Source of the DNA: a virus
DNA: 24,351 nt
Direction: 5' to 3' (one strand)
Virus record (IMG/VR): IMGVR_UViG_3300010379_000056
Location: 1-24,351 of that record
The notes below the pieces were generated by a model. That model was not told the origin of the DNA. It saw only the letters and a list, made by a program, of their open reading frames with translations, and ran no database searches. A program made the translations under genes and the position numbers. Of this stretch, positions 2,968 through 24,351 are shown in pieces (within the stretch, counting starts at the first letter, position 1; each line of letters starts with the position of its first letter).

Positions 2968-3819
2968 TCATGCCCAAAGTGTATTCGTACTGGAGAAGTT
3001 AATCGGCACTTCGCCAAACCCGTCCCCGTTGACGTCGATCTCGACCGTGGTTGAGCACAACAGCGCCTCAGCCTCAAAGCGGAATCGCGAGGCCAGCGCC
3101 ACGTACTGCCCCGCCTTGGTGATCATCGATTCGCAGATCCGGGAGAGGGCATAGTAAGAGCAAATGTCGATCACGCGCTGAGTCACGAGGAGCTGATTCT
3201 GTTGCAGCGCCGAGAACAGCCAGCGATTCGTCAGCGACGTTCGCCGCCCGCCGCCGGTATACCAAGCGTCAAGGGCGAATCCGTGGTAGCCCAGCAGCGA
3301 GACATTACCGCCGCGGTAGTTCCGCAGGACCATCTCATCCAGCCACGACCGCGCGTCCGCCATCTGGTTGTCGAAACCGCTGTCGGAATCGGGCACGATC
3401 AGGTCGTCGATCCACGGCGCGATATTGCGGACGTTCACGATCGTGATGTAGGTGGGCCTGGCCGTGAATGTCGTGCCGGGGGCCGCCAGCACGGTCAGGC
3501 TCGAACCCTTGGGCAAGAGCGCCGCGGATCGCGTCGGCGATCCGGCCCGCGTAGCGAACGCCTGGACGTAATACTGGCCATAGGCCAGACTCGATGAGTC
3601 CGTGTCCTGAAGGCTGATAACGATCTGGCCGGCCGGGGCGTTGCTATTCAGCCAGCTCACGCCGGGGGTCAGGACCGGGGTCTCGTTCTGGCCCTGCCAC
3701 ACCACGCAGTTGAGCGTGTCGGTATTCAGGAATTGCGTGGCCGGAGTCCCGTCCGGATTGTAAATCTGGCAAGGGAAGTCGCGCGCCGCGCCTTGCGTGA
3801 TGGAGAGCGAAAGTCCCAT
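2968..3819 (-). CDS. Head-tail adaptor/connector-like protein with N-terminal beta domain
   Basis: This is a 283-aa protein. I chose the ATG at 3819 because GGAGG lies 9 bases upstream; a TTG two codons earlier would be too close to that site. Residues ~1-115 form a beta domain (SLSITQGAARDFPCQIYNPD, AYGQYYVQAFATRAG, LLPKGSSLTVLAAPGT), resembling the Ig-like N-terminal module found in some baseplate and neck proteins. Residues ~120-283 are helical (IDDLIVPDSDSGFDNQMADA, VIDICSYYALSRICE, SRFRFEAEALL) and end with an acidic segment (EIDVNGDGFGEV), a pattern I know from phage head-tail connector proteins. The gene overlaps nothing and begins 2 bases after the giant fibre gene. The role is to join the portal vertex to the tail. 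Confidence 0.6.
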   Translation of the reverse strand: MGLSLSITQGAARDFPCQIYNPDGTPATQFLNTDTLNCVVWQGQNETPVLTPGVSWLNSNAPAGQIVISLQDTDSSSLAYGQYYVQAFATRAGSPTRSAALLPKGSSLTVLAAPGTTFTARPTYITIVNVRNIAPWIDDLIVPDSDSGFDNQMADARSWLDEMVLRNYRGGNVSLLGYHGFALDAWYTGGGRRTSLTNRWLFSALQQNQLLVTQRVIDICSYYALSRICESMITKAGQYVALASRFRFEAEALLCSTTVEIDVNGDGFGEVPINFSSTNTLWA

Positions 3820-3821
3820 GG

Positions 3822-6800
3822 TCAAGGTCCTCCATCAAGGCCGGTCATGATCGGCGTGGATTGCTCTGGGTCGATCCCGAACGGGTCGCCGCCCGTGTCG
3901 AGAGCCGCGGACAAGGGCGCGGTTTGCTCGGGATCGATGCCCCATGCGTCGGTCGTGTCGAGCGCTGACGGCATGAGCGTGGTGGCGAATTCGTATGGCA
4001 ACCAGAGAGCAGGGATCGCCGCCCCGCCCGTCGTGGGGCCGGGGTAAGCCGAGATCAGCAGTCCGGGCAGGGAGATCGTGTAGGCGTAGCTGAGCCCCAA
4101 GCCGCCCGGGAGGTCGCTGATCTGGAGACCCGCCAGCCCGATCCCAGCCGTCTCGCCCGTAGCCCCCCAGGCGTCCGTGATCTGCAATCCTGGCGCCGCT
4201 GCCAGGACCGTTGCGTTCGTGGCGGGAGCGTAGAACGCGCTGATAGCCAGACCTGGACAGGGGAACGAGGGCGTGCCCGCCGCCGGGCCATAGAACCCGG
4301 AGATGTCGAGTCCAGACGCGGCAATACCAACCTCGGCACTCGTCATCGGCCCGTAGAATCCGCTGATCTGAAGGCCGGCCGCTGAGAATGCGTATAGCCC
4401 GCCAACTTGGTTCGCGAATTGCCCCCAGTTGGCCGTGATCAAGAGGCCTGCGCAGTACGGCCCTGGTCCGCCCGTGGTTGTGCCAGGCGCGCCGGTGATC
4501 GCGAGCCCGGAGTTGAGCGTCTCGACCACGACGGTATCGGGACCGAAGAGTCCGCTGATCTGGAGTCCGGGAACGAAGGGACCGGGCCCGCCGCTGGCCG
4601 CCGCTGGCGTGTCCGTGATGGCGATCCCAGCCGCCCCGCACGCGACCAGCTCCCCGGCCGTGGCCGGATAGCCTGAGATCACCAGGCCGCCCGCGTAGAA
4701 CGTATAAGAACCACCCAGCGAGAGATTGAACGGGCCGAAGGCGCCGCTGATCTGCAAGCCGGCCGCCGACACGAACTCAGCAAGTCCCAGACCGCCAAGC
4801 GCCCCGCTGATCGACTGCCCCGCCGCCGGGTAGCTTGCCGCCTCGCTAGCCGCGCCTTCGACTCCCGAGATCAGGAGCCCGGATGCGCCCCATGCGAACG
4901 TCTGGTTCGCCGCGCCGGGATAGCCTGAGATTATGAGCCCCGCCGCCGAGAACGTGAATGAGCCGCCGAGAGCGACGTTGAATGGTCCGAGGTTGTGGGT
5001 GATCGGCAGTCCCGCCGCCGAAAAGTAGCTTGGCCATGACGCCGCGCCCACAAACCCGCCGATCGTCAGGCCAGACTCGGGAGCGATGATCGAGACGATG
5101 TTGGCCGGGGGAATGTCTGTGACGTGCAGGTTGCCGATGTGAGCGCCGGTCGAAACGGTCGCGCTCGTACCAACGAAGTACAGGCCCACGTTTGGCGGGC
5201 TCGCGGGAGTCGCAACCGTGTAAGAGCATAGGGCCGTCCACGCACCGCCGTAAGAGGTCGCGTAGGACGCCGCGAAAGTCGTGTTCCCGCCGCTGGTCGA
5301 GACGTCGATCTTGATGAACCAGGGGACATTGAGAGCCGGGCCGGAAGCCGTAGGCCCCACGTAGGTTCCCGCGTTCTCGAACGTGAAGTAGCTCGAGCTC
5401 TCGATCCAGTTGAAGGTGATCCTTGCGCCAGTCCAAGGGTTTGCCATGAGCAGCGTCACGCCCGTGTCCGTGCCCATGACGGAGGACAGTCGCTCGAACG
5501 TGTACCGCGCTTCGAAGTTATCGCTGGATGGCATCGCCGCCGTGGAGATCCAGATGGACGGCTGTGTGCCCGAGAGGTACACCATGCCGCTGCCACCGAG
5601 CGAGACCGACGTGTTGCCCGCCAGTAGATCCCATGCCGCCCCGCTGTCGCTCGCATGTGCGCCGAGCGATGTCCCTGCCGCCCCCTGGAACGTGTCCACC
5701 AGATAGACGACGGGCGGAGGTCCGAAGTTGCCGAAGATTTCCAGCGCGGCCGCCGTCTGATAGATCGGCCAGTTGGCGCCGCCCGTCGCGCCTGAGATCG
5801 CCAGCCCCGCGAACGATGGCCAGAATCCGCCCTGAGATGGCCCAAACGTCCCGGTAATGTTCAGGGGCGCCGCACCCCAGTTGATCGGCCAGCTCGCCGC
5901 GCCGTCATTGCCGGTGATCGCGATTCCTGGAAGGGACGGCCAAAACCCGCCTCGGCTGGCTCCGAACGCTCCGTTGATCGCGATGCCCGCCGCTGCCGGC
6001 AATGGCCCCGCCGTGTCCGCCCCCTGCGATCCGGTGATGGCCAGGCCAGGAGCGCTGAAGGTGAACGTCGTCTGCTGATAGGCCATCGCCCCGACATCGG
6101 GGTAAGTGCCGGTCCACGAGTTGCCCGCCGCGTCCTGTGTGCTCGGATCGGTGGGGTAACTCGCGGAGTGATAGGTCTGGTTCGTGGGCCTGAATCCTGC
6201 CAGAACCCACGGGATGAGCCCTGTCGTCGCCTGGCTGATCAGCGCGGGATTGGCTGCCAGCGTGGCCAGGGCAGCCGCCACCGTCGCGGTGCCGCCGCCC
6301 GTCGCGGTGCCGCCCCATGTCGCCAGACAGCGGGTCGAGTCCACGAACTGCGGATTGGTGTTATTGATGTCATGCGCGCCGGGGGTCGCGGTGTAGTTCC
6401 CCTGGTAGCCATTGCCCGCATAGGTGTAGGTATTGCCGGTGTAGGGGCCGGCCTGCATCTGGTATCCGCCGTTGTAATCGGCGTTTGTGGGGCTGACGAC
6501 GTTGGAGGTGCCACCGCTGGTTGGCGAGCCCGCGTCCCAGAGCTTATAGGCGTTGCTCGAGGTCATGTTCTGTGCCCAGAACAAATTCGCCTTGTAGAGC
6601 CCGATCTGGCCCGTCCCGGTCGCTCCGTTCTCCGAATAGTGGGCCGCGAAGTTCTGGCCACAACAGACCGTGCAATGAAGAACGTCCACAGTCACGTAGT
6701 GGTTGGGGTCGGTGCCCGCGCCGAAGACGTTGAGCAACTGGACGCCCATGTTGTTCCCGCCGGGATCGACGGGCAACGTCAGGCAGTTTTGGATCGTGTA

Positions 6801-8345
6801 GGTTCTGGGTGCCGACGGGTCGCCGGTCAGAAAGGCTTTGCCGCCTGGAGTACCGCCGCCGCATGACTCGAAAATGCACCCGTTGACCGTTATCGATGCG
6901 TCGGGAAACGAAAGGAAATGCGGGTTGTCCGTGGTGGAATACGCGAAGTAATTGCCGTTGATCGAGCCGCCTACTCCCGTGGGACCACCGCCATCGGCAG
7001 CGGTGACCAGGAGATTGCCAGCGAAGTTTGATGCGGCTGGCCACTGTGGAAAGCCGTTGATGAACCATCCCGCGCCGCAAAAGTTGCCGGTGAACGTGTA
7101 CCCGCGATAAGCGCCGAAGTAGATTTCGAGGTCAAAGCTATTGGTACTGATGGTCCGCGTGCCAGACGTGTAGTTGTTGTTCGCCGCGAACTGAGCACAC
7201 TGAGTCAAGCCTTGGCCGGTGTACCCGATCGACGAGCTGAAGATGTTGTTCGAGAAGGTGAAGTTGCCGTCCCAGCTACCATCTGACCCGGTGCCGAATG
7301 AGTACGAACATCCGGTGAAGGTGCAGTTTGTAATCGAGAAGTTGGGATTCAAGCTCCCGTCATCAAGCGACTGGATTCCATTCTGGGTGCTCGTTCCGAA
7401 GTTGCTGAAGTCCGTATAGGTCGCTGTCGCCACTCCGAACGTGGAGTACGAGCCCGCTGTCATGTACGAGTTATTGCCGCCGAGCGAGAGGTCAGTCTTG
7501 ACCACGCAGTGATAGCCGCTCGTTCCATTCGCCACCAGCGTGTTGATCGCGTTCGATGCACCGAAGTTCCACACGCACGTCTGGCCGCTCGGAGGCCGGA
7601 AGCTGATCGTGCTCCCGTTGTTCATCGTGACGGTGGAGGCCGCCAGATGTGCGATGTCACCGCTGAGCGTGAGTTGATAGCCGAAGTTGAGCGTCAGCGA
7701 TCCGCCCGCGTTGAACGTCAGTGCGGGTTGACCGCCAGTCACGAACGCGGTCTTGCCGATCGAGGCGTTCTGGTTGAGCGTAACCGCCGCGCCAATGAAC
7801 ACATAGTCGTTCGTCGTGGGTTGCGCGTTGGCTGCCCAGATCGATCCGTTCCAGTTGCCAGCCGAGATCGCACCGCACCCGCGCGGGTCCGTCGCTGGCT
7901 GGATCAGGGCCGCGTTGATCCCGACGTAACCGCTGGCACCACTGGTGATCTTCAGCGTGCAGGACGTGCCCGATGGGGTAACGGACCCAACGAGCATGAA
8001 CGTCTCTGCATTGGAATTCGTGTAGACCATCCCCTGCGGGACGATCTGCTGATTCAGCGTTCCGCTGGAGAGCACCGTTGAGCCGTTGCTATCCAGGATC
8101 TGCCAGGTGCTGGTCGCACACCACGAGGATGGAGCCCAGAGCCCAGTGATCTGCGAATCCATCGCGATCCAGTACGCGGTGCTCGCGGTCAGTCCGGTGA
8201 AGTTCCACGAGGCCGTATTGCCCGAACTGCTCGAACAATAGAGCATCGTGTTCCCGTACCCGTAGCCCGCGCCGACAAGCCCGCTATTCCACGAGCCGGT
8301 CGTGCTGAATCCGGTGCCGCCATTGATGATGAACGTTGCGGCCAT
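3822..8345 (-). CDS. Giant beta-helix/repeat fibre-like protein (1507 aa)
   Basis: The largest gene of the window starts at ATG 8345, directly after the TAA of the upstream gene. Visible layout: residues ~1-150 are a beta-sandwich-like N terminus (FIINGGTGFSTTGSW; NTASWNFTGL) resembling the golvesin C-terminal-like module. Residues ~155-750 are Asn/Gly/Thr-rich with the rhythm of a right-handed parallel beta-helix. Residues ~765-875 carry six 20-residue repeats of the type AAGLxISGxxG. Residues ~882-1085 are a lectin/LamG-like domain. Residues ~1088-1447 carry about 17 further repeats. The C terminus has two GIDPEQ motifs. No signal peptide or membrane segment is seen. Such architecture suits a surface fibre or spike that binds or cleaves polysaccharide. 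Its place between capsid decoration genes and neck genes suggests a head-attached fibre rather than a tail fibre. The fibre role is inference; the repeats are directly visible. Confidence 0.85.
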   Translation of the reverse strand: MAATFIINGGTGFSTTGSWNSGLVGAGYGYGNTMLYCSSSSGNTASWNFTGLTASTAYWIAMDSQITGLWAPSSWCATSTWQILDSNGSTVLSSGTLNQQIVPQGMVYTNSNAETFMLVGSVTPSGTSCTLKITSGASGYVGINAALIQPATDPRGCGAISAGNWNGSIWAANAQPTTNDYVFIGAAVTLNQNASIGKTAFVTGGQPALTFNAGGSLTLNFGYQLTLSGDIAHLAASTVTMNNGSTISFRPPSGQTCVWNFGASNAINTLVANGTSGYHCVVKTDLSLGGNNSYMTAGSYSTFGVATATYTDFSNFGTSTQNGIQSLDDGSLNPNFSITNCTFTGCSYSFGTGSDGSWDGNFTFSNNIFSSSIGYTGQGLTQCAQFAANNNYTSGTRTISTNSFDLEIYFGAYRGYTFTGNFCGAGWFINGFPQWPAASNFAGNLLVTAADGGGPTGVGGSINGNYFAYSTTDNPHFLSFPDASITVNGCIFESCGGGTPGGKAFLTGDPSAPRTYTIQNCLTLPVDPGGNNMGVQLLNVFGAGTDPNHYVTVDVLHCTVCCGQNFAAHYSENGATGTGQIGLYKANLFWAQNMTSSNAYKLWDAGSPTSGGTSNVVSPTNADYNGGYQMQAGPYTGNTYTYAGNGYQGNYTATPGAHDINNTNPQFVDSTRCLATWGGTATGGGTATVAAALATLAANPALISQATTGLIPWVLAGFRPTNQTYHSASYPTDPSTQDAAGNSWTGTYPDVGAMAYQQTTFTFSAPGLAITGSQGADTAGPLPAAAGIAINGAFGASRGGFWPSLPGIAITGNDGAASWPINWGAAPLNITGTFGPSQGGFWPSFAGLAISGATGGANWPIYQTAAALEIFGNFGPPPVVYLVDTFQGAAGTSLGAHASDSGAAWDLLAGNTSVSLGGSGMVYLSGTQPSIWISTAAMPSSDNFEARYTFERLSSVMGTDTGVTLLMANPWTGARITFNWIESSSYFTFENAGTYVGPTASGPALNVPWFIKIDVSTSGGNTTFAASYATSYGGAWTALCSYTVATPASPPNVGLYFVGTSATVSTGAHIGNLHVTDIPPANIVSIIAPESGLTIGGFVGAASWPSYFSAAGLPITHNLGPFNVALGGSFTFSAAGLIISGYPGAANQTFAWGASGLLISGVEGAASEAASYPAAGQSISGALGGLGLAEFVSAAGLQISGAFGPFNLSLGGSYTFYAGGLVISGYPATAGELVACGAAGIAITDTPAAASGGPGPFVPGLQISGLFGPDTVVVETLNSGLAITGAPGTTTGGPGPYCAGLLITANWGQFANQVGGLYAFSAAGLQISGFYGPMTSAEVGIAASGLDISGFYGPAAGTPSFPCPGLAISAFYAPATNATVLAAAPGLQITDAWGATGETAGIGLAGLQISDLPGGLGLSYAYTISLPGLLISAYPGPTTGGAAIPALWLPYEFATTLMPSALDTTDAWGIDPEQTAPLSAALDTGGDPFGIDPEQSTPIMTGLDGGP
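4010..5090 (-). repeat. Tandem 60-bp coding repeats, block 2 (about 17 units)
   Basis: Within the giant gene, units of about 20 codons repeat with consensus A-A-G-L-x-I-S-G-x-x-G followed by a variable 8-12 residue spacer (for example AAGLQISGAFGP, AAGLIISGYPGA, ASGLDISGFYGP, CPGLAISAFYAP). Some units are longer (24 codons) because of a GGSxTF or GGLYAFS insert. Two larger blocks repeat: GPFNVALGGSFTFSAAGL with ISGYP, and GPFNLSLGGSYTFYAGGL with ISGYP. This points to duplication of multi-unit segments, not only single units. Confidence 0.85.
5730..6055 (-). repeat. Tandem 60-bp coding repeats, block 1 (six units)
   Basis: Six units of the same 20-residue consensus lie before the lectin-like insert. 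They show a clear two-unit (40-residue) periodicity: FGASRGGFWPSLPGIAITG with DGAASWPINW, then FGPSQGGFWPSFAGLAISG with TGGANWPIYQ. The alternation suggests the array grew by doubling a pair of units. It is separated from block 2 by about 200 codons of non-repeat sequence. Confidence 0.85.
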
Positions 8346-8606: not shown

Positions 8607-8679
8607 CGTGGGGCGTGAGGCGTGGAGCGTGAGGCGTGAAAGCAATTAACGCTCCACGCTCCACGCGCCACGCTCCACG
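8607..8679. repeat. Inverted array of 7-bp units, copy 2
   Basis: The left arm (8607-8643) reads as CGTGGGG, CGTGAGG, CGTGGAG, CGTGAGG, then CGTGAAAGC. The AATTAA core is at 8644-8649. The right arm (8650-8679) has CGCTCCA, CGCTCCA, CGCGCCA, CGCTCCA and CG. It sits just after the stop of the 151-aa gene and before the ribosome site of the 83-aa gene, in the same relation to genes as copy 1. The identical core and unit type show common origin. Confidence 0.9.
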
Positions 8680-9616: not shown

Positions 9617-10129
9617 TCAGCCCGTGACGTAAAAGCCAACGTAGGTTGGTGCGCTGCCTACGCCCGTGCAGGTCAGATAGACCACGGTTGTAACTGAGGT
9701 CACCGTGGGGGCCGTGTGCACGCCATCGGTGGCCGTGCCGACGCCAACCCAGCTAATGGTGGACGGCCAGGTGATCGCCGCCGAGCCCGCGCCGGTGATC
9801 ACCAGCATGATCGTCTGGCCGATGCTCGGACTGAGGATCTGGCTAGCCGCGGCGAGAGCCGATGTCGCCGTGGTGGCGAACTGGAGCGTCATCGTCCCGC
9901 CGTAGCAGGTGAAGGTAAAGATCCCGGCTTGCGTCCAATCGAGATTGGTCGTGCCGGTCGCCAGCGTGCCGAGAGCGGAGAGCGCACCGTTGAAGCACCC
10001 AGGGGTCGCCACCCAGTTGCGCCCGGTGCCCACGGCGCCGTAGCCGAGAATGGGGTTGTCGTCAGCCGCGGCGGGTACGCCAGCGCCACCCGCCACCCCG
10101 GCCGAAGTCACTGTGTTTGCAAGAATCAT
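9617..10129 (-). CDS. Beta-rich virion protein, paralogue of the next upstream gene
   Basis: This 170-aa protein starts at ATG 10129 with AAGGA upstream. Its C-terminal ~125 residues align with the neighbouring 161-aa protein: both contain LATGTT, FTFTCYGG or FTLTCYGG, an MT-F core, GQxIxMxITGAGSAA and TWPxxxSWVGV. This module resembles the jelly-roll-like C-terminal domain seen in many tail fibre and head fibre proteins. The first 45 residues (MILANTVTSAGVAGGAGVPA) differ from the paralogue, so the ends may define separate attachment sites. It is likely displayed on the capsid; enzymatic function is not indicated. Confidence 0.7.
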   Translation of the reverse strand: MILANTVTSAGVAGGAGVPAAADDNPILGYGAVGTGRNWVATPGCFNGALSALGTLATGTTNLDWTQAGIFTFTCYGGTMTLQFATTATSALAAASQILSPSIGQTIMLVITGAGSAAITWPSTISWVGVGTATDGVHTAPTVTSVTTVVYLTCTGVGSAPTYVGFYVTG

Positions 10130-10156: not shown

Positions 10157-10642
10157 TTAGGAGGTGATGTACTCACCGATGTAGTTGCCGAGACTGGTGC
10201 ACGTGATGTTGACCACCGTGAGTACCGCGCCGGTGAGGACCGGAGCGGCCGCACTCACTGCCGGGGTCGCGATCACGCCAACCCACGAGAACGTGCCGGG
10301 CCAGGTCACTGCCGCCGAGCCGGCGCCGGTGATCGCCATCGTGATCGACTGGCCAGGCGTGACGTTGCTGAACGCGAACGTCATGGAGCCGCCGTAGCAC
10401 GTCAGGGTGAAGTAGTTGTACAACCCCCAATTGAACGTGGTTGTCCCGGTGGCGAGCGTGCCCATAGCCAGGACCGAGTTGACCGGCGCGAGCACCATTG
10501 CCCAGCCGGTGCCGGTCGCCGTGGGGACAGTGCCAGCGACGGTAAAGGGGAGCGTATCGCCGAGCGTGGCGGGAACCAAGCCGACGCTTTGCACCGTCCC
10601 CATCGGATTGCTCGGAGGAGCCTGAAGGACTTGACTTGGCAA
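10157..10642 (-). CDS. Beta-rich virion protein, capsid-adjacent copy of the pair
   Basis: I place the start at TTG 10642 because a full ribosome site (AAGGAGGT) sits 5 bases upstream; this site overlaps the stop codon region of the capsid gene, so the two are tightly coupled. The product is 161 aa. It begins MPSQVLQAPPSNPMGTVQS and shares the FTLTCYGG, ITGAGSAAVTWPGTFSWVGV and terminal YIGEYI elements with the 170-aa gene downstream. As the first gene after the capsid gene it is a good candidate for a head decoration or short head fibre protein. The pairing shows tandem duplication. Confidence 0.7.
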   Translation of the reverse strand: MPSQVLQAPPSNPMGTVQSVGLVPATLGDTLPFTVAGTVPTATGTGWAMVLAPVNSVLAMGTLATGTTTFNWGLYNYFTLTCYGGSMTFAFSNVTPGQSITMAITGAGSAAVTWPGTFSWVGVIATPAVSAAAPVLTGAVLTVVNITCTSLGNYIGEYITS

Positions 10643-10653
10643 GAGACACCTCC

Positions 10654-12051
10654 TTAGCAATTGATGATCACGCCGAAGTCGGGACGGATGACGCCAAGGG
10701 CATAGCCGAAGTCCACCGTCACGAAGAGCGCCTGGTAGATGTGGACGTAGCTCACCATGACCCGGAGAGGGATGCCCATCAGGTCGAGATACGACACGTC
10801 CACGACGTTCCGGGCCTCGTCCGGGGTTGCGATCGGCCGCAAGGCCAGGGCGATGGCGTATTCATGCATCGCCAGGTTGGTGTAACTCTGGTAAGTCGCG
10901 GTGCCGGCCGTCACGACGTCGGCCGCCACGATCGGGGTGGCGAGGACAACGACGGTGGAGCTGGTGTAGCTGGCGATCTGGTACAGGTTGGCGCCCGCTG
11001 CATAGCTGCCGGCCGTCGAGAAAGCGAGCCACTGGCCGACGTTGGCGGTCGTGAAGCTGGCACTGGCGGCCGTGCAGGTTGTCGAGCCGAGAGTCGTGGT
11101 GACGGTGGCCGTCACGACCGAAATCGAGCGAGCCGTGGTGACGACCGAGCCGGAAGCCACGAGGGTCGTGGGAATGGTCGTGGTGATGGTCAGGGACGTG
11201 TCGGACGCAACCGCCGTCACCTTGTATTGCACCTTCGTCGGATCGTTGCCGAAGACGAGATACTGGCCGACGAGGTTGGCGCCCGAGGGGCCGGCCGTGG
11301 TAAAGTTGGTGTTCAGGCCCGTGATGGTTGCCGAGCCGCTGGTGAGCGTGAGCTGCCCGTACAGGATCGAGCCCGAGGCCGTGGGCATCTGCTGGTCCCA
11401 CTTGGGACGGAAGTTGAAGGCGTGCGCGAGATCAGCGTCTTGGCGGGCCGCGCTAGCGATGGTCGCGCTGACCAACGACTCTTGCACCCAAGCCGAGTCA
11501 CCGAGCATCTTCTGATAGACCCGGTTGTGCACCATGAGGGAAAGCTTGTCGGAGTCCTCGAGCGGCACCTTCTGGTCCGCCAGCGTTCCCCAGGCGTTGA
11601 GCTGATCGGCCACGCCAACCTCGCCCTGGATCGCGCCGGTGATGGCGGCGTTGGCGTTGAAGTTGCCGGGGGTGATCAGCGCGGCAATCTGGCCGTTCAG
11701 GTACTCACGCGCCCTCTTGTAGAGGGGGTCAAAGAACTTCTGGGCGAGATCGACGGCGGTCTGCCATTGCTCGAAGTCCTGGAACTGCAGAGCAGCGCCC
11801 GCCCGGTTCTGGAATACGAGCGGGATGTAGTTGGGGCTGACGGTCTGGCCGGTCAGGATGCCGTTGCCGATCGACGCCAGGGGGCCGAAGTCGGGGAAGT
11901 AGACATCGACCGTCTTACCGATGCGGGCCGCTTCGGGCTTGACGTCCTTGTACACGGCGTTCAGCAGGGCAGTTTGCCCGACCTTCGCCTTGTTGTACTC
12001 GTCAGCGCCCGCGACGAGCGTCTCGAAGAATGCAGAGAAATTATTGGCCAC
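10654..12051 (-). CDS. Major capsid protein with beta insertion
   Basis: This 465-aa protein starts at GTG 12051, with AAGGAGG 7 bases upstream. It forms the head shell. The N-terminal part (MANNFSAFFETLVAGADEYN; SPNYIPLVFQNRAGAALQFQ), the middle part (AHAFNFRPKWDQQMP) and the C-terminal part (ALALRPIATPDEARNV; SYVHIYQALFVTVDFGYALG) match capsid proteins of the P22-like coat lineage as I recall them. Residues ~228-388 interrupt this with two tandem beta modules (SGSATITGLNTNFTT and SLTITTTIP; TCTAASASFTTANVGQWLAF and STVVVLATP). The insertion is probably exposed on the shell surface. A scaffold-like gene lies two genes upstream. No frame damage is seen. Confidence 0.8.
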   Translation of the reverse strand: MANNFSAFFETLVAGADEYNKAKVGQTALLNAVYKDVKPEAARIGKTVDVYFPDFGPLASIGNGILTGQTVSPNYIPLVFQNRAGAALQFQDFEQWQTAVDLAQKFFDPLYKRAREYLNGQIAALITPGNFNANAAITGAIQGEVGVADQLNAWGTLADQKVPLEDSDKLSLMVHNRVYQKMLGDSAWVQESLVSATIASAARQDADLAHAFNFRPKWDQQMPTASGSILYGQLTLTSGSATITGLNTNFTTAGPSGANLVGQYLVFGNDPTKVQYKVTAVASDTSLTITTTIPTTLVASGSVVTTARSISVVTATVTTTLGSTTCTAASASFTTANVGQWLAFSTAGSYAAGANLYQIASYTSSTVVVLATPIVAADVVTAGTATYQSYTNLAMHEYAIALALRPIATPDEARNVVDVSYLDLMGIPLRVMVSYVHIYQALFVTVDFGYALGVIRPDFGVIINC

Positions 12052-12361: not shown

Positions 12362-12965
12362 TGACGGCCTGCTCTCGGGCTCGTTGCTCTTGCCGCGCCT
12401 TGACAGCTTCGCTGATAAAATTCCGGTTGCGCGGGTCCAACATGAAGCGAGGATTCGCCATAAGCTCCGGAGTAAGCACTGTGCCGTCGCCGCCATCGTT
12501 GCGAGCGCCCCGGCCTTCCTCGCCACGCATTGTGAGCCCATAGGAGGTCTGCGCCGCCTTGCGTGCCGCCGCCATGTTGGGGGGCTCTGCGTCCTCAAAC
12601 GCATAGTGCGCCTCGGTCTTGAGCTTCTTGAGGACACCTTTGAGCGCCACCTCGTCGGGCTCGTCCGCCTCCGCCTTGTACTCCGCGAGCTTCCACAGGT
12701 GCTTGACCGCGCCTTCGCGGGCCTTCTCGCCCTTGGCTAGCTCGGAGAACTTGTCGAAGTGGTTGCGGTCGCGGATCTTGGCCTGCAAGTCGGCGATCTG
12801 GGTTGCAGCCTCAGGCGACGTCTTGAGCTTGTCGCGTTCGTCGCTAACCTCGGTCAGCGCATCGCGGTACTCATCGCGCTCGGAGGTGAGGGTCTGCAGC
12901 TGGGCTGTGAGCGCCTCAACCTGACGCTCGAGGATCTTCAGTGCTTGATCTTCACCGCTGGCCAT
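12342..12965 (-). CDS. Probable capsid scaffold protein
   Basis: This 207-aa protein starts at ATG 12965 with GAAAGG upstream. Residues 1-75 are a strong coiled coil (ILERQVEALTAQLQTLTSER; DALTEVSDERDKLK). A charged helical middle follows, and a C-terminal segment (LTPELMANPRFMLDPRNRNF) matches the short motif I know from phage scaffold-like proteins. Scaffold proteins guide capsid assembly and then leave. Its position one gene before the capsid gene supports this. No protease gene is visible nearby, so removal without cleavage would be expected. Confidence 0.65.
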   Translation of the reverse strand: MASGEDQALKILERQVEALTAQLQTLTSERDEYRDALTEVSDERDKLKTSPEAATQIADLQAKIRDRNHFDKFSELAKGEKAREGAVKHLWKLAEYKAEADEPDEVALKGVLKKLKTEAHYAFEDAEPPNMAAARKAAQTSYGLTMRGEEGRGARNDGGDGTVLTPELMANPRFMLDPRNRNFISEAVKARQEQRAREQAVSGPIIR

Positions 12966-23202: not shown

Positions 23203-23793
23203 TCAGTATGTGGTACTATGTGTAATCGTGTGGATCATGTCTTCATCATCCCAGGCCTCGGTTTCGAAGGCATGAAGTTCGAGGTTCTCTACCTCCAATC
23301 TCTCCGTGCTGATGCCGGCTTTGCAGAGGAGCACCTCGAGAAACTCTGCGGGAGTCCGGAGTCCAAATCGCTTTGGCACCTCGGGCAACAGAAGCCCGGA
23401 ACGTCGCCCTTGAATGATCAAGAGTCCATGCCGGCCGAGAACGATCTCACTTGGCCTGATACGCTTCAGTGGCGTGAGGGCGCTGATCCGGATGGTCAAC
23501 CGCGGCAGCTCGTCTTCGGTGACAGAAGGGAATCGCGAATCGTCGGTCGCCGAGGAAATCGCCTGTCGGATCACGGATTCCAGCAGCGGGCGGCTTGGCC
23601 GGCACTCGCCCCGACAGCCCCGCAGTCCGCCATTTTCGCGGAGGCGGAGAGTAACAAAGCTTCCACGGTGCTGGAGCAAGCACGGAGAACTGGTTGGATA
23701 CTCGGAGACAACGCCGCTACCCAGGAATTCATGGAGGGCTTTCCGGGCGGCGTGAAGCGCGAACCGTTTTTCCTGTGGGCCGATAGGAAGCAT
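23203..23793 (-). CDS. amrA: AMMECR1-domain protein (AmmeMemoRadiSam system protein A)
   Basis: I chose ATG 23793 (MLPIGPQEKRFALHAARKAL, 196 aa); a GTG ten codons earlier (23823) would leave only a base between AAGG and the start. The conserved motif LRGCRG (family LRGCIG) near residue 62 is followed by RPLLESVIRQAISSATDDSR, FPSVTEDELPRLTIRISALT and a C-terminal RRSGLLLPEVPKRFGL then EFLEVLLCKAGI, all diagnostic of AMMECR1 domains. In bacteria it belongs to the AmmeMemoRadiSam set (with a Memo-like protein and a radical SAM enzyme), whose chemistry is still debated. Partners are not in this window. The tail (FETEAWDDEDMIHTITHS) is longer than usual. It is a host gene. Confidence 0.85.
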   Translation of the reverse strand: MLPIGPQEKRFALHAARKALHEFLGSGVVSEYPTSSPCLLQHRGSFVTLRLRENGGLRGCRGECRPSRPLLESVIRQAISSATDDSRFPSVTEDELPRLTIRISALTPLKRIRPSEIVLGRHGLLIIQGRRSGLLLPEVPKRFGLRTPAEFLEVLLCKAGISTERLEVENLELHAFETEAWDDEDMIHTITHSTTY

Positions 23794-23972
23794 AGGGCTC
23801 GCTCTCTTTGCTTGTGACGTCACCCCTTGATCATCATCTCTGGCATACCACTCGCCTCCATGATAGATCGACGGTCATTCGACTTCGACAGCCCGCCGAT
23901 TGCCAATGTTGGCTCGTTCCGGATTGCCGTGCTGATGTATGAGCGCCATGAGATATGACATGACGACCGGCC

Positions 23973-24351
23973 TCACATCTCTTGAGCTTCTGTTCCGAAT
24001 CGCTCAGTGAGTGCATGTTTTTCATCGACGCCGATCAGCGCGTTGAACTCGGCGAACGTCATCAGCCGCTCAGTCTCGCGTCGGGTCGTTCCATCCTCCT
24101 TCAATGTGCGATACACCGTTTCGATCAGCCGGGCCGATGCGAAAAGGGCGGTGAGTGGATAAAGGATCATCTGGAAACCGAGATCGACAAGGTGCTGCTT
24201 CGGCAGGACGGGCGTCTTGCCACCTTCGATCATGTTGGCCACGTTGGGCGCCGGCGAGCGGCGGCCGATGGCTTGGAGGTCGTCAAGCGAGGTCGGTGCT
24301 TCAACAAAGCTGGCATTGGCGCCGGCTTCGCGGGCGGCTTCCACGCGGCGA
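23973..24351 (-). CDS. Isocitrate lyase/PEP mutase family protein, 3' part
   Basis: The frame enters from the right edge and ends with TGA at 23973-23975. The visible ~125 residues carry typical family motifs: AAREAGANASFVEAPTSLDD (the VEAP metal-site region), ANMIEGGKTPVLP, LGFQMILYPLTALFASARLI and a terminal MTFAEFNALIGV. These enzymes cleave or form C-C or C-P bonds in 2-oxo acids (methylisocitrate lyase, oxaloacetate decarboxylase, phosphonopyruvate hydrolase). The catalytic lid (the KKCGH-type loop) lies outside the window, so I cannot tell which reaction. The true start is beyond the edge; the earliest in-frame GTG here (24344) is not the start. Host gene. Confidence 0.85.
   Translation of the reverse strand, partial: RRVEAAREAGANASFVEAPTSLDDLQAIGRRSPAPNVANMIEGGKTPVLPKQHLVDLGFQMILYPLTALFASARLIETVYRTLKEDGTTRRETERLMTFAEFNALIGVDEKHALTERFGTEAQEM

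Follow-up and report, generated by a model that had tools for sequence, protein, structure and literature searches.

GLxISG repeats as a candidate swappable stalk in a putative modular surface adhesin of a phage clade

Known surface proteins and the layout of the giant gene

The T4 Hoc protein and the Hoc-like head fibres combine a conserved C-terminal part with a variable, repetitive string, and they are encoded among the head genes; in one Hoc-like protein, that of PG7, a GDSL lipase domain is also present (PMC10385173). The DNA analyzed here (the window) is a complete virus record of 24,351 bases, in which a single uninterrupted ORF (positions 3822-8345, minus strand) encodes a giant protein of 1507 aa, a putative virion surface adhesin. 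This protein shares the Hoc-like layout, i.e., its C-terminal motif (CTM) is conserved and the rest varies, and the same module of sister phages also contains GDSL-like lipases, as PG7 does. Unlike Hoc, the window protein is far larger, is built on 20-aa repeats and has no detected Ig-like domains. Homology with Hoc was not observed (no Pfam match up to E 10, no match in the phage records and no sequence similarity), and the window protein is built like Hoc in layout only; it is not a Hoc. A second comparison is offered by the parallel beta-helix tailspikes of P22, Sf6 and Phi92 (gp150), with which the window protein likely has a role in surface recognition in common. It differs from these tailspikes in that there is no sequence match, the conserved end is C-terminal, and the units are short (20 aa) with few inward hydrophobics. 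The searches found no homologue of the window protein whose structure or function is known.

The giant gene is located between capsid and connector genes, and all the features described in this paragraph are on the minus strand. The major capsid protein (10654-12051), which matched the PHROG 283 major head protein with E 1e-20, lies upstream of the variable module, and a gene coding for a 285-aa protein (2968-3825), connector-like by position, lies directly downstream of the giant gene; it also adjoins the CTM genes in related contigs and served as a marker gene. Within the giant protein, the N-terminal region (aa 1-150; 7896-8345) had no significant Pfam match. The following region (aa 151-762; 6060-7895) looked by eye like a parallel beta-helix, and a profile search gave no match; its second half (aa 458-758) is common to the related contig L156. 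It is followed by repeat block 1 (six GLxISG units; 5688-6059), a domain of about 200 aa that interrupts the array (5085-5687), repeat block 2 (seventeen units, 360 aa without any Lys or Arg; 4005-5084) and the CTM (WLPYEFATTL ... AWGIDPEQT ... PFGIDPEQS; 3825-4004), which was recognized by an HMM match with E 8e-22. The first-pass annotation had described a lectin-like domain that splits the array. A domain is present at this place, but its lectin-like character, assigned by eye, found no profile match in Pfam or the PDB; a weak match to PHROG 29859 (E 0.18) was obtained with this domain, outside the array. An independent contig (L001) matches the window up to position 12372 except for one base, which is outside the giant gene, and the array does not vary in length between the two.

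Other features were observed around the giant gene. Two adjacent paralogous small proteins (9617-10129 and 10157-10660, minus strand) are encoded directly downstream of the capsid gene; they show weak matches to tail fibre or virion structural PHROGs, are found in most relatives and are possible small decoration proteins. In addition, 7-base tandem repeats (CGTGGGG / ACGCTCC) are arranged as inverted arms at 2898-2964 and 8607-8679, and these arms sit upstream of a 165-aa gene (directly) and of a 99-aa gene.

We propose that the GLxISG array is the swappable stalk of a modular virion surface adhesin in which the CTM is the attachment or assembly end, and we give this reading a probability of about 0.5. 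The protein is presumed to be part of the virion, with the array extended as a stalk at the protein level, in which short beta-strand repeats would be linked in a chain and would keep the recognition or enzyme domains of the N-terminal part at a distance from the particle. The stalk would be one exchangeable part of an adhesin encoded between capsid and connector genes, and each such adhesin would consist of a variable head (e.g., the region common to the window and L156, or the domain common to L003 and L154), one of several unrelated stalk repeats, and the short conserved CTM. The N-terminal end would bind the host surface, and the CTM would most likely anchor the protein to the head, as suggested by the position of the gene next to the capsid genes, which is a circumstantial sign of head attachment. 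Alternatively, the CTM could serve as a signal for assembly or for a chaperone rather than as an anchor. The first-pass annotation did not contain this aspect, namely that the array appears to be a module that can be exchanged, placed between N-terminal domains that vary and the conserved CTM.

Count, doubling and relatives of the GLxISG repeat

When the GLxISG units were counted in the translation, 23 of them (6 + 17) were found at nt 4005-6059, in agreement with the earlier claim of about 23 20-residue units at 4010-6055. The spacing is mostly exactly 20 aa (range 20-24), and the first residue of GLxISG is located at aa 767, 787, 807, 827, 847 and 867 in block 1 and at aa 1092, 1112, 1136, 1156, 1176, 1196, 1220, 1240, 1260, 1280, 1300, 1324, 1345, 1365, 1386, 1406 and 1428 in block 2. 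When the array was shuffled, 1.0 motifs were found on average (maximum 5) instead of 23, and the 22 correctly spaced pairs that were observed compare with 0.009 (maximum 2) after shuffling. In the consensus of 36 units from three phages, a position occupied by a hydrophobic residue or proline precedes A-A-G-L-x-I-S-G-x-x-G, where the G, L/M/I, I and G of GLxISG are almost invariant. Each unit carries two hydrophobic-x-hydrophobic patches with conserved glycines between them, and Gly, Ala, Pro, Ser and Thr account for 60% of the array.

The autocorrelation of block 1 was higher at lag 40 (z = 11.8) than at lag 20 (z = 6.8), which indicates that the unit of evolution in this block is a pair of repeats, and the 40-residue period that had been noticed there is therefore real. 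For block 2, z values of 7.3, 4.9, 6.4 and 6.3 were obtained at lags 20, 64, 84 and 104. The duplication reported for this block, with its GPFN and LGGS elements, was also recovered: it is a four-unit segment of 84 aa, present as copy 1 (aa 1108-1191; 4773-5024, minus strand; GPFNVALGGSFTF) and copy 2 (aa 1192-1275; 4521-4772, minus strand; GPFNLSLGGSYTF), which share 45% of their residues and 56% of their nucleotides. The GPFNxxLGGSxTF element occurs a third time at aa 1309 in a diverged copy of the 24-aa unit (4326-4460, minus strand; GQFANQVGGLYAF), with GQFANQVGG for GPFN/LGGS; over 30 aa, this copy has 53% of its residues in common with copy 1. The nucleotide identity among duplicated copies was 51-56%, and that of the third codon positions was 35-42%, versus 33.5% expected from base composition. 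These near-random third positions indicate that the duplications are old and that selection has maintained the sequence of the protein. The first-pass annotation proposed that the length of the stalk evolves by recombination. The number of units does differ among phages (23, at least 8 and 5), so that a stalk of evolving length is plausible, but synonymous sites are saturated, and no sign of recent slippage or recombination was found in the array of this genome.

The repeat had been called novel-looking, and comparison with Pfam, PHROGs, the sequences of the PDB and 50,697 phage records found no described family for it. The whole protein had no Pfam match up to E 10, the array had no match in PHROGs or in the phage records, and the best value of the array profile against PDB sequences was E 0.94. 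The YadA-head repeats (PF05658) did not match the window protein either. As a control, an endolysin query in the same phage tblastn search matched 468 records, and low-complexity filtering left the GLxISG query unmasked; hence, the empty searches of the phage records are informative. A two-unit DNA pattern was searched in 2.9 million IMG/VR viral contigs and retrieved two further phages, L003 and L014, plus L001, the twin of the window. The array of L003 has at least 8 units, since the contig end cuts it, and that of L014 has 5. With a single-unit profile, the three GLxISG proteins scored 79-264 bits versus 25 bits or less for all the other sequences compared. The sole clear relatives of the repeat are phage contigs, in line with the phage-only matches that had been named as support.

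The same pattern retrieved 50 loci from 84,980 bacterial and archaeal species. On inspection none of them was a true GLxISG array, although distant relatives could escape so strict a pattern; the majority were collagen-like repeats (GPTG), pentapeptide repeats or chance occurrences. Another phage contig (L020:1-513, minus strand) carries PSGLLITGAVGTV repeats, whose residue pattern is like that of GLxISG; the likeness is weak, and the E 0.0013 of the unit profile was obtained with a sequence found by the same pattern as GLxISG. A marine phage may have a repeat of the L020 kind. A consensus query for such a repeat found none in the phage records, and the repeat was absent from the five HTVC010P genes inspected.

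Predicted conformation of the array

AlphaFold2 models were obtained for the array of the window protein together with its C-terminus (420 aa, 4 rows; pLDDT 47, pTM 0.41) and for the eight-unit array of L003 (160 aa, 6 rows; pLDDT 55, pTM 0.52). Both models place a strand on GLxIS in most units and have one or two short strands per 20-aa unit, and in the eight-unit model most units have two. A beta-solenoid stalk had been proposed from the letters of the sequence; the predicted strands recur every 20 aa in both models, at these low pLDDT and pTM values, and no match better than E 0.8, and thus no significant one, was found with Foldseek for the eight-unit model. The long, low-confidence model aligned to the right-handed beta-helix of the Phi92 gp150 tailspike with Z 16.4 (rmsd 4.7, 339 aligned) and to those of Sf6 and P22 with Z about 15, and the eight-unit model gave mixed matches with VIA-align, the best being 3jx8 (Z 11.5, rmsd 2.5, 150 aligned). 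Coming from low-confidence models, these Z values are hints only, and the low-confidence beta-solenoid fold is a suggestion only.

Several explanations compete at this level. The composition of the array, together with a pLDDT below 50 over 281 of 420 residues, would suit a flexible, largely disordered Gly/Ala/Pro-rich linker that merely spaces domains. We consider such a linker improbable, because the strict 20-aa spacing, the near-invariant G, L, I and G and the alternating hydrophobics point to a folded repeat, and the repeat positions are conserved despite the saturated synonymous sites. It is also unlikely, though less so, that the repeat forms an intertwined trimeric fibre, like a triple beta-spiral, rather than a monomeric solenoid, with two strands per unit and turns at Gly and Pro. 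Such a fibre would account for the two hydrophobic patches of each unit with the conserved glycines between them and for the two strands predicted in most units of the eight-unit model, and obligate trimers are expected to give low monomer confidence. Triple beta-spiral shafts share short repeats, paired hydrophobics and Gly/Pro turns with GLxISG, but the consensus differs, the GLxISG unit is 20 aa long versus about 15 in known triple beta-spirals, and no sequence match to any fibre shaft was found.

The array could belong to a conventional tailspike or tail fibre, attached by its N-terminus, in which it would form a shaft of the beta-solenoid type, made of one chain or of a trimer, and the CTM would be a trimerisation or folding tip. 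The alignment of the full-array model (pLDDT 47) with the tailspikes would fit this explanation, and tail fibres commonly have repetitive shafts. However, in this clade the variable end of the protein is N-terminal and the conserved end is C-terminal, whereas tail fibres usually show the opposite arrangement; the gene is located between those of the capsid and the connector, and the CTM can be a separate small ORF, so that we regard this explanation as somewhat doubtful.

Stalk types and the C-terminal motif across the clade

The related contigs numbered 42 by capsid and about 50 by capsid plus the 285-aa gene, some being repeats of one another. The recurrent gene order is portal, scaffold, capsid, variable module, 285-aa gene and tail genes; in L145 and L146 no such module is found between the capsid gene and the 285-aa neighbour. 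The GLxISG repeats (type a) are found in the window, L003 and L014/L136, and SGxITLGxLxVSG repeats of 21-25 aa (type b) in L154, L155, L156, L140 and L169. A proline-rich repeat of 34-38 aa (about 36) is present in L151 (type c), tandem CTM copies in L113, L110 and, in a 35-aa form, L114 (type d), and other proteins of the variable module have no repeat (type e). The type b stalk is like GLxISG in its period of about 21-25 aa, its position in the protein, its CTM and an L-x-[IV]-x-G core common to both. When homology between the two repeats was considered, the hhalign profile-profile comparison did not give significant similarity.

Many module proteins end in the CTM, whose clade consensus is LPYEFTSVLI...NPFGIDPEQTxxITxGL. 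The same CTM ends the proteins of the window, L136, L154 and L156, and the L003 protein is cut before its end. In some cases the CTM forms an ORF of its own (79-103 aa), and a small CTM ORF can follow a module protein. Its aa identity is 58%, and the third-position identity at identical residues is 45%, which indicates that the motif is conserved as protein and not at synonymous sites. In a scan of 2.9 million viral contigs, the CTM was present only in this clade.

Domains are swapped around the array. The region of aa 458-758 of the window protein is 46% identical to L156 (blastp, 313 columns, E 9e-51), and after this region L156 continues with SGxITLGxLxVSG repeats. Similarly, L003 and L154 have N-terminal domains that are 38% identical, the stalk being GLxISG in L003 and SGxITLGxLxVSG in L154. 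The tree built with the 285-aa neighbour groups the window with L151, which has the proline-rich repeat (support 100/98), and places L136, with GLxISG, in another supported group (99/100) together with other stalk types, so that the stalk type does not follow the core gene. Domain swapping would be a simpler reading than repeated loss, judging from few genomes. A broader version of the proposed reading, which we hold tentatively, is that the adhesins of the clade form a cassette system: whole stalks, built from several unrelated repeats of 18-38 aa, would be exchanged on a conserved anchor peptide at the C-terminus, and GLxISG would be a new folded fibre or solenoid family.

If the proposal is true, the short list of phage stalk repeats would gain a sequence family without a catalogued relative, and the combination of similar heads and the same CTM with different stalks would be a natural experiment. 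It could then be asked whether the sequence of a stalk has effects other than those of its length and rigidity, and whether the short CTM can work as a general tag for attachment to these phages. A phage clade whose capsid and portal have no protein-level match in 50,697 phage records is also documented.

The sister-phage module proteins include GDSL esterase, BNR-repeat and YadA-head domains, which are typical surface-active domains. GDSL/SGNH esterase proteins (PF13472) were observed in L140:7704-9488 and L153:3-2078 (plus strand), the former also bearing two copies of the SGxITLG repeat, and L125:3781-5043 (plus strand) has four YadA-head matches (PF05658) in the same variable module. An 18-aa form of the CTM (NPFGIDPEQT) is amplified to 3-5 copies in small ORFs (L113:17030-17602, L110:7259-7567 and L114:9548-9973), and those of L113 and L114 also have LLLENGS/LLLEGG-like motifs.

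Distant portal homologues were found in 18 of 392 genomes of Planctomycetota (the phylum of a Phycisphaerae MAG) and in 0 of 396 genomes of Acidobacteriota (the phylum of a Holophaga MAG). These counts make Planctomycetota a candidate host group, a point that the flanking host-like genes do not decide; the variable module was absent from the Planctomycetota prophage-like loci with distant portals. At the right end of the window, a host-like AMMECR1 gene (23203-23823, minus strand; Pfam E 7.7e-42) is followed by a gene fragment (23973-24350, minus strand) that by eye resembles isocitrate lyase/PEP mutase proteins, and here the contig may extend past the boundary of a provirus or include genes of cellular origin.
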